Below, in pieces: positions 893-7,300 of a stretch of 64,000 nt of DNA. Under the pieces are notes generated by a model that worked only from the letters and a program-made list of their open reading frames with translations, had not been told where the DNA came from and did not search any database. Positions within the stretch are counted from its first letter, which is position 1, and every line of letters starts with the position of its first letter. Source of the DNA: Paracyclopina nana (Eukaryota; Arthropoda; Copepoda; Cyclopoida; Cyclopettidae). The stretch spans positions 2,170,001-2,234,000 of the forward strand of contig JAGUCH010000005.1 of NCBI GenBank assembly GCA_019096065.1. Direction: 5' to 3'. The translations under genes and the position numbers were made by a program.

Positions 893-1064
893 CGGTGGTT
901 GCTCGAATGATCAAGTTTTACAACCTTCCTCTCATCACTGCGGGTGGATTCGTCTTTGACTTCAACAAGCCCAAGCTCAAATTTGAGGACGAGTTCCACT
1001 TGCTTGTGAAAACTGGCTACTCATTTGAGCCGATGGCCAAGTTCATCTTTGACTTCTTCAACCA
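893..1064 (+). CDS. ligand-binding exon of receptor guanylate cyclase, upstream cassette (exon 1 of 2 visible)
   Basis: The exon is bounded by a TTTTTCAG acceptor and a GTAAGT donor, starts in phase 1 and ends in phase 2. It encodes VARMIKFYNLPLITAGG followed by an acidic/hydrophobic stretch ending FFNQ. This matches the ANF-receptor (periplasmic-binding-like) fold of receptor guanylate cyclases around the conserved 'VAR...P.iTaGG' segment. The same region appears again in diverged form at 5206-5407. The beginning of this ligand domain lies left of the window, so the gene is partial here. It may be an alternative N-terminal half of the cyclase that follows, or a separate truncated paralogue. 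Confidence 0.85.
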
Positions 1065-1128
1065 GTAAGTAAAATACTGTAAGGCGCAACTTTCGCACCA
1101 TGTGATCCCGCAACCTTTCATCCACTAG

Positions 1129-4329: not shown

Positions 4330-7300
4330 ATGGGGTTGTCTTTGCTATTGAGCAAGACAGGCCTATTTGTCTTTCTCCTCTTGAGCTGTACATCAGTGAG
4401 TCATTGCCAAGAAATTCAGCAAGAATGTGCCCAAGTGAAAACGGTCTCCATTTCTGCGTGTGAGCCTTCTGTGGACAGGCTCGAGAAAGTGCTGAGAATT
4501 GCTGTTCTCCTGCCCAGTGAAAACACTGAGACTGACCCGCACAATTTAGTCTATCACAATCGGCTGGAACGTGTCAGAGTTGGCCTTGAAGTGATCGCAG
4601 ATGTGAACAACTCACGTCTGTTGAAGACCAGCTACAAAAGCCCTTTGGCCAGTGTGTTGCCAGGATGGACCATTGAAGTCATGACTGGTGACACTCAGTG
4701 TAGCTCCACTTCGGGGCCTCTTGAAGCTTTCAGATTGCATTGCCAAGCAGGTCAAGTTACAATCACCCATTAGGCTTTCGGATTTTGTGCCAGTGACAAT
4801 TTTAGCCAATTCAATTCTAGAAATGACTTTTATCCAAGTACTTTGGATGCTGCAGCTCATTGTTCCTCTTATAAAGAAGCTGAAAACAGCTGAGAGTTTG
4901 ATTGTAGATTTAATCTATTGTTTTGTAAGAAAAGGCCTTATAGCATTATTACTGAAAGAAGGCATCAAGACAACCATTACCAATGTTCCTTACCTGTTTT
5001 GTACCATATCACTGCACTGCTGACAACTTGGACAGAAGACACTGATGATGAAGGAAATTCATTGTTTTCCCATCAACAATTCAAAAGCTTCAGCCTAAAA
5101 AATAATTAATGCGAGCTCATGCCGCAGTGAAAATAGCATCCATAAATGCAGCTAGTTGGCGGGTTTAAAAAAAACCGAAAGCCTAATGTATTTTGCTGCA
5201 TCCAGATGTATTCATGGGACCAGTGTGCCCCTATGTGCTGGCTCCTGTGGCCAGATATTCGGGGGTTTGGAAAATCCCTATTGTCACGACGGGTGGACAG
5301 GCCAGCACATTTCGAAATAAAGAGCAATATCCCCTACTGACCACGATTGGCGGGGCGTACGAGCAATTTGCTGTCTTTTTCACTAACCTTCTCGAGCTGT
5401 ACAAATGGTATAACTACTTGATTCATTTGAGCTTTTAATTATGCCAGTTATTTTGTGAAGAAATACTCGCAGTTTTTTTTGCTGTATTCAAGTGTATTTT
5501 GTAGGGAGATAGTGACTTTTCTGTTCCACACCTACCCAGAAGACAGTGGGTTAGGCAAGTCTACCTGTCAATTCACCCTGGGTGAAGTGTACCTTCAAAT
5601 GAATGGAATGCGCAACGAAAATATCACGTATGAGCCTTTACTTGAGGACAAGCTTAACCGGACTCAAATTGAGCAAGTCCTCAAAGGAGTACAGTCGAGA
5701 GCTCGAGGCAAGAAGAATACATTACGTCATTTTTGAATTATGCCTCCATCATGGTTTTCAATACATTTCTCTATTTTTTCAGTGGTGATCTTGTGTGCGT
5801 CTCCGCCTAAAGTTCGTGAGATTTTATTGGCAGCTGAAGAACTGGGAATGGTGGAACGCGGTGATTTCGTCTTTTTCAACGTGGAATTATTCACAAAGTA
5901 AGAATATGTAATGTATCAGGATTTTGAGGTTTTCTGCTTGAATATTGCAAGCCTGCAAACGTATCCTTTTTCTCAGTTCAGATTTGAGATAAAGCAGAAA
6001 TTCGTACGAAAAGGCACAAATCCTATAAGTGCTGTCATGGCTTTTTCTGATGACAATATCGAAAAGTGAAAAATAGCTGAGCAGTATGGTAAAAAAGTTT
6101 CCCCCTTATTGCAGTAGTGAAGATGGCTTACGTAGGCCTTGGTACGACCCTTCAAGCTCAAACGAAGAAAACGAAAGGGCCAAAAGGGCCTATGAAGCTG
6201 TGCTCACTGTGACTGCGAGTTCGTCCTCAGAATCAGCTGAATACGAAGCCTTTGCCTCGGCAGTGAAGGAATTGTCCAAGGAGAAATTCAACTACACCTA
6301 CGAAGGCCCTGTCAACAACTTTGTGGCCAACTTTCACGACGCGGTATTTGCTTTATTTTTTATGGAAAAACTCGTCCTTTTTCTGATGGAAATCGAAAGT
6401 TTTCTAGGTGTTGCTCTATGCTACGGCGTTGAAAGAGGCCATAGAGGAGCAGGGAATTGAGGCAAAATCCAATGGAGAGCTGATTGTGAAGAAAATGTGG
6501 GGAAGAACCATTTTAGGTAAGCTTTTTGCAAATCTCTAGTGATTTGCGAATTAGAGGATCCCCCGCTTCTCTTATGACTTGAAAGAAGCTTTCACTTTCT
6601 ATCTCTCAGCCTCAACTAATTCTAATTTTTGGTGCAGGAAAACAGAAAAGTTTTCCGCGACAAACTTCTTCATTGTTTGTTTGTTTCCTTTCGGCTCTCA
6701 GCTGTGCAAAAATATGACCCGTGTGCGCGGTCTGTCAAAAAAGCCTAGTAATACTTCATAGCATATAAATAGCAACACATATTTAACAATATACCAAGCC
6801 ATGGTTACTTTTTCAAGGAAGCTGAAACATGTATATAAATGAGATTTGGGAGTACTGAATACAAGCAAGAAAAGATTTGCTCGGATGCACATTTGAGTTG
6901 GGTAAAGGGCTTGGAAAACTCAATTTTCAGCTTAGAGGCTGAAGCCTTTTTGTGTTTTGAGGCCAGAACATGGTAGCAGTACATGGGCAGTGTCCGTTTA
7001 TATGCATCTGATAATTCCCATTCATCATATCCTTCTCTGTTGATATAGAACTTTTCCAGCCTTTATTTTTGGGCTATGCTTTCTAGTGGCTATCCAAGAC
7101 CATAAAAGTCAACACTGAGCATGTGTACGGACATCATTTGTCACTGTAATTATCCTTCCCAAAAGTTGAGCCTTATGATCTGAAGCAAGGCTTGGCAGGA
7201 AAGTTACCATTTTCCTTGCTTTCTTTGGTAGCCTTTTTCGAAAGTTTGGCAAGCCCACTAGAGTTTGTCAAGGGTAAATTTGTGATGCTTGTTGAGAAAA

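Follow-up and report, generated by a model that had tools for sequence, protein, structure and literature searches.

In the natriuretic peptide receptor NPR-A, the disulfides are C60-C86, C164-C213 and C423-C432, as given in a passage of PMC4049422, and three splice isoforms described in a portion of PMC10665444 lose or gain short segments and produce no cGMP. Among nematode receptor cyclases, isoforms c and d of Caenorhabditis elegans gcy-28 have their own promoters, with cDNA primers that differ at the ATG end and share the 3′ end (from an excerpt of PMC9249223), a passage of PMC3842693 describes the C. elegans parallel as "specifically in AIA," and isoforms of gcy-12 differ at the C-end (excerpt of PMC12324235). 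The Drosophila receptor baboon carries alternative fourth exons, e4-A, e4-B and e4-C, which encode distinct ligand-binding domains and for which different ligands are suggested, according to a section of PMC12124520.

We analyzed a 64,000-nucleotide stretch of the Paracyclopina nana genome (the window; contig JAGUCH010000005.1 of assembly GCA_019096065.1, positions 2,170,001-2,234,000, forward strand) and searched the 92-Mb assembly, which consists of 10 contigs. Exon models were built from open frames and splice sites, with GT as the sole donor type sought for the shared exons. The window contains an NPR-type receptor guanylate cyclase gene at 4330-19201 whose first three exons form cassette B, with a second set of three exons, cassette A, lying upstream (Table 1). 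The part that follows, S, comprises 20 exons from 5783 to the stop at 19201. It completes the ANF domain and continues with a hydrophobic exon that looks transmembrane-like, a kinase homology domain (PF07714, 136.4 bits) and a cyclase (PF00211, 236.9 bits); the hydrophobic exon at 7763-7844 and the hydrophobic N-ends of A and B were read by eye. Cassettes A and B are intact, homologous and in frame with one shared half. We think it likely that the locus is one NPR-type cyclase gene with two putative promoters, two alternative hormone-binding halves and a shared remainder, for which we infer separate promoters, a splice from 1340 to 5783 and different ligands.

Table 1. Exons of cassettes A and B and of the shared part, in window coordinates (negative numbers lie to the left of the window).
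Feature	Position	Strand	Content and borders
Exon A1	-1945..-1504 (G000:C5:2168055..; L009 8055-8496)	+	ATG, signal-like N-end, N-terminal part of ANF lobe; ends in phase 1
Exon A2	893..1064	+	Phase 1 in, phase 2 out
Exon A3	1129..1340	+	Holds C229 (aligned with NPR-A C164); donor GTG/gtaagc, phase 1
Exon B1	4330..4750	+	ATG, signal-like N-end; ends in phase 1, donor CAG/gtcaag, score 3.0
Exon B2	5206..5407	+	
Exon B3	5505..5707	+	GC donor GAG/gcaaga, phase 1
Exon S1, first shared	5783..5897	+	Starts at split codon V276; C280 aligned with NPR-A C213
Exons S2-S5	6115-6343, 6408-6516, 7408-7499, 7562-7697	+	Rest of ANF receptor domain, juxtamembrane Cys pair
Exon S6	7763-7844	+	Hydrophobic, taken by eye as single transmembrane segment
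Exons S7-S13	7989-8121, 8370-8444, 8517-8594, 8841-9017, 9080-9242, 9593-9751, 14978-15155	+	Kinase homology domain
Exons S14-S20	16290-16439, 17592-17715, 17776-17844, 17902-18076, 18354-18452, 18523-18614, 18896-19201	+	Linker, guanylate cyclase catalytic domain, C-terminal tail, stop

The first-pass annotation of this DNA, made from the window, had described A and B as diverged versions of the same lobe of an ANF-receptor domain, and this description holds. Both match PF01094 (A: residues 100-245 on profile positions 16-148, 58.5 bits; B: residues 108-273 on 18-177, 58.2 bits), and they score 57.0 bits against each other in BLASTP, where 100 shuffles reached at most 20.8; the first ~100 residues of either cassette gave no match in Pfam or the PDB. 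Against the PDB, A alone finds NPR-C best (E 3.6e-9, residues 100-217) and B alone finds NPR-A best (E 1.2e-17). Over 109 columns common to A, B and the PDB chains of NPR-A (8tg9) and NPR-C (1jdn), A and B share 28% identity (31/109), which is about the divergence of either from NPR-C (31% for A, 28% for B); B is nearer to NPR-A (38%, 41/109) than A is (29%, 32/109), and NPR-A and NPR-C are 46% identical. In this comparison of four sequences, the A/B pair would thus be either old or composed of a B and a fast-changing A. The intron positions agree less closely than had been proposed: the inner junctions of both cassettes are indeed in phase 2 and near each other (Q205 in A, W208 in B), but A is split 3 codons before the tryptophan at which B is split, and in the alignment the first intron of A, at A148, lies ~12 codons beyond that of B, at B141. 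Exon borders in A and B are AG acceptors and GT donors, with the exception of the GC donor at 5707; this last intron of cassette B is the one GC-donor intron among those modelled here, the others being GT, with a search for shared-exon donors that covered GT only.

Cassette A is complete, with no stop, frameshift or broken splice site over its 826 nt. The signal-peptide exon that the annotation had placed left of the window is there as exon A1, with an ATG, a signal-like N-end, a phase-1 donor and a frame open throughout, so that the stops or frameshifts that would have spoken against an upstream cassette are absent from it. The second cassette likewise has, as had been claimed, its own ATG and an N-end that looks signal-like by eye. 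With the shared exons as training set, codon scores come to 0.13, 0.29 and 0.36 for A1, A2 and A3, and 0.11, 0.09 and 0.20 for B1, B2 and B3. All six exons score positively in the correct plus-strand frame and in no other plus-strand frame; on the reverse strand, scores slightly above zero occur for A2 in two frames (0.02 and 0.09) and for A3 in one (0.01). In 162 intron windows, taken from the same introns that set the background, the 95th percentile is -0.06 and the maximum 0.14, such that A1, B1 and B2 exceed the former and stay below the latter. When neutral decay of B to 0.32 identity was simulated, 9.9 stops arose on average and none of 300 frames stayed open; at merely 0.2 substitutions per site the result was again 0/300, in a simulation that omitted indels, which could only add damage.

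Both cassettes measure 826 nt to their last donor and end, as the annotation had said, in phase 1, within codon 276. From the phase-1 acceptor of exon 5783 it had been argued that either cassette can join the shared exons in frame; A+S and B+S are indeed both open, each with 3567 nt, a single terminal stop and 1188 aa. The phase is less telling than was stated: agreement in phase by itself is expected in one case out of three, and the acceptor at 5206 is also phase 1. A+S aligns with NPR-A (8tg9) in one stretch (residues 118-497, E 9.2e-52) and with PF01094 in one stretch covering 17-352 of 353 profile positions, with 155.4 bits, where the halves reach 58.5 and 84.4 on their own (the Pfam scan took A+S as a joined protein, and B and S one at a time). 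Such a single match is only consistent with joining, as the same would be expected of any good N-terminal half placed before an in-register C-terminal half. Outside the presumed signal peptide, A has cysteines at 118, 143 and 229, and the outer shared part at 280, 492 and 499. Five of these (C118, C143, C229, C280 and C492) align with C60, C86, C164, C213 and C423 of NPR-A, C499 falling just past the alignment, and the count of six matches that in the three disulfides of NPR-A; B+S has these six and a further three or four. Taken alone, A would have an odd, unpaired cysteine; the partner of C229 is encoded in exon 5783 (C280), and from the alignment we infer a putative C229-C280 disulfide between the cassette and the shared exon. 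The spacing of these two residues after splicing is 51 in A, 51 in B and 49 in NPR-A, and the GPxC and VILC motifs lie 137, 132 and 127 residues apart, respectively.

The splice sites were scored with matrices of 19 sites each, the acceptor matrix being trained on the 19 other shared-exon acceptors with 5783 left out. The acceptor at 5783 scores 11.1, the highest of the 286 AGs between 1345 and 5783, compared with 7.9 at 5505 and 7.0 at 5206. Donors score 5.6, 7.8 and 6.4 in A and 3.0, 4.2 and 5.0 in B; given that the B donors are the weaker ones, skipping of B2 and B3 in transcripts that start in A is easy to imagine, as far as 19 training sites can suggest. The A3 acceptor is weak (2.1, exceeded by 18 of the 19 shared-exon acceptors). 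By arithmetic, acceptors near the start of B1 (4284, 4320 and 4386) would leave A out of frame with B1.

The annotation had considered as its alternative a truncated tandem paralogue, in which the whole gene was duplicated, the first copy lost its second half, and A is a dying or dead relic. We regard this as unlikely, although A and B are homologues arranged head to tail and built alike from three exons, and A has moved further from NPR-A than B has, as a relaxed copy might. Against it stand the unbroken 826 nt of A, set beside the complete loss of open frames in simulated decay at 0.2 substitutions per site, and the retention in A of a cysteine whose partner sits in the shared exon. The intact frame and splice sites make A unlikely as an old dead relic, and are compatible with a recent loss. 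Consistent with the claim that one set of downstream exons exists, a genome search with the outer shared half (query 1-220), in which 55 of 127 candidates were scored, gave matches at E ≤0.001 solely at this locus and hence no second NPR-type shared half. The genome has at least 36 ANF_receptor matches and at least 48 cyclase matches, counted exon by exon, of which the cyclase match set at window 17632-18457 is part of the two-cassette gene itself. When the outer shared half was compared with 21 loci by tblastn, one distant match fell below E 0.001 (26% identity, E 4.8e-6), in a receptor cyclase on C3. This receptor cyclase, at C3:3.016 Mb, and two others, at C5:4.676 Mb and C7:4.79 Mb, have ANF, kinase-like and cyclase matches and, judged by eye, are presumably Gyc76C-like. 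In tblastn against the loci of these other receptor cyclases, B gave nothing up to E 1, and A a single match at chance level (E 0.39). A search for a third cassette with A as query, up to E 10, returned five matches in the genome, namely A1, A2, A3, B2 and one on C3 (E 0.38), and the idea was abandoned. When a prokaryote contig collection was scanned with cassette A, 48 stretches fitted a pattern and none of them encoded a relative.

It is improbable, more so than the paralogue, that A makes a short protein of its own, in which A1-A2-A3 would be spliced to a local terminal exon, e.g., at 2878; the product, a half domain either secreted or tethered to the membrane, might serve as a decoy. Such an exon could start at the acceptor at 2878, which suits a phase-1 donor and leads into 72 open codons, among them a stretch that looks hydrophobic by eye, and 2859-2945 has the top coding score on the plus strand of 1341-4329 (12.6 bits, a value reached by 2.5% of 200 shuffles). 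However, a similar score, 13.2, is found in the 5.2-kb intron of the same gene, though at a possible internal exon; the acceptor at 2878 scores 5.4 against 11.1 at 5783; the stretch has no Pfam match; and hexamers of the polyA type number 2 where 2.9 are expected from their density in the 5.2-kb intron. The half ANF domain would moreover end inside the second lobe, with its cysteine unpaired unless a Cys of the new stretch serves.

Two further readings have very little probability. In a tandem-lobe receptor, A3 would be joined to B2 at 5206 to give A+B2+B3+S, a protein of 1323 aa with a repeated half-lobe, whose frame is open to the normal stop; the distance from GPxC to VILC would then be 272 residues rather than the 127 of NPR-A, and the acceptor at 5206 scores 7.0 against 11.1. 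Equally remote is an assembly collapse that merged the near-identical second halves of two complete tandem genes and so lost that of A: we saw no point in its favor, first halves at 28% identity (31/109) beside identical second halves would require strong gene conversion, a tblastn comparison of the shared part with the 2989 bases separating A3 from B1 gave no match at E 0.05, and the assembly comprises 92 Mb in 10 contigs.

The two-head interpretation keeps its main supports, a cassette A that is complete and in frame, one retained half of a putative disulfide and, among the candidates scored, no second NPR-type downstream half, while the arguments from phase and intron position are weaker than had been stated. 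Under this preferred reading of one cyclase with two alternative hormone-binding halves, a putative promoter left of -1945 would drive A1-A2-A3, whose donor at 1340 would skip B2 and B3 and join the acceptor at 5783, and a putative promoter just left of 4330 would drive B1-B2-B3, which would use this acceptor too. Either mRNA would encode a 1188-aa receptor, and the two receptors would share everything from the second outer half through the transmembrane segment and kinase homology domain to the cyclase. The cassette would supply the first half of the outer domain, ending one residue before VVILC and carrying the GPxC motif and the cysteine predicted to pair with the shared exon. In NPR-A structures, a large share of the surface that touches the hormone lies in the corresponding half, together with part of the dimer contact distal to the membrane. 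By analogy, the A and B receptors would be expected to recognise different ligands, or to bind the same one in different ways, and both would be coupled to cGMP. Swapping the cassette would alter ligand choice, and the shared half and cyclase would retain the signalling step. Mixed A/B dimers within one cell are possible.

Several other stretches with coding potential were noticed in the introns and the flank. In the 5.2-kb intron, 11682-12042 (plus strand) is an open exon-like stretch of 361 nt with an ATG and a phase-1 donor (TGG/gtaagc), in a region (11600-12060) with a GC content of 0.49 and a CpG o/e of 0.83. Splicing it to 14978 would produce a 517-aa cyclase that lacks the transmembrane segment; the length of its ORF was equalled in 11 of 1000 local shuffles, its coding score is ambiguous between two frames, and it has no Pfam or PDB match. 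A possible short first exon of 52 nt at 14730-14781 (plus strand; ATG, phase 1, donor CGA/gtgagt, score 3.7) lies 196 bases before shared exon 14978, to which an in-frame join would give 414 aa. The same 5.2-kb intron also holds, at 13467-14045 (plus strand), an ORF of 192 aa listed with a GTG start, whose ATG-started part is probably a run of 168 codons, reached by none of 300 intron shuffles. Antisense within the first intron of cassette A, at window -853..-59 (minus strand; L009 9147-9941), is a single-exon ORF of 264 aa, a relative of exonuclease domains (Exuperantia RNase H-like 39.8 bits, RNase_T 34 bits, over a 219-aa stretch). Further out, L009 7-1332 (minus strand), probably extending to about 2230, contains exons of a membrane transporter, by eye of the major facilitator SLC22 kind.

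If RNA confirms this model, a cell could pick, via promoter choice, which hormone opens the same cGMP pathway, and co-expression of the two forms could yield mixed dimers with a joint response. The locus would also be a clean natural domain swap affecting a receptor cyclase's hormone-binding half, helping to separate the parts that set ligand identity from those that pass the signal. Automatic gene models may miss cassette A or label it a fragment. A broader version is unlikely: here one cyclase gene would have three kinds of input, from the anciently diverged A and B under two outer promoters and from an internal start at exon 11682-12042, giving the soluble 517-aa cyclase. In this version, given that A and B differ about as much as either does from NPR-C, with B nearer to NPR-A than to A, the pair may be old and common to other animals, and gcy-28 of C. 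elegans would be a candidate for the same arrangement.

Compared with the known systems, the gene resembles natriuretic peptide receptors A and B (GC-A and GC-B) in its outer ANF domain, kinase homology domain and cyclase, and in having its cysteines in register. Unlike the cassettes described here, none of the three NPR-A isoforms in the cited portion of PMC10665444 swaps the hormone-binding half. The likeness to gcy-28 would lie in one cyclase gene with separately promoted isoforms and is limited, in the excerpted source, to promoters, ATG ends and the 3′ end; anatomy of the gcy-28 kind, i.e., two start exons with their own ATG and the same catalytic exons, is seen here at the DNA level. Passages of PMC12324235, PMC7560641, PMC8752840, PMC5225109, PMC4961389, PMC8045692 and PMC8816384 describe no N-terminal cassettes, and among the literature matches listed, judged by title or the start of the abstract and with subscription papers mostly outside the scope, we recognised no receptor guanylate cyclase with two swapped hormone-binding halves. 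The case of baboon, as far as the cited section goes, would be alike in that one receptor has alternative exons for ligand binding, of which one is used at a time; for A and B the homology amounts to 57.0 bits against at most 20.8 in 100 shuffles. It differs in being a type-I TGF-beta receptor and in using single internal exons, compared with the three-exon cassettes of the present locus, each with its own start and signal-like N-end. Relative to these parallels, the new element would be a receptor cyclase whose two hormone-binding halves are whole, homologous and far diverged and start separately.
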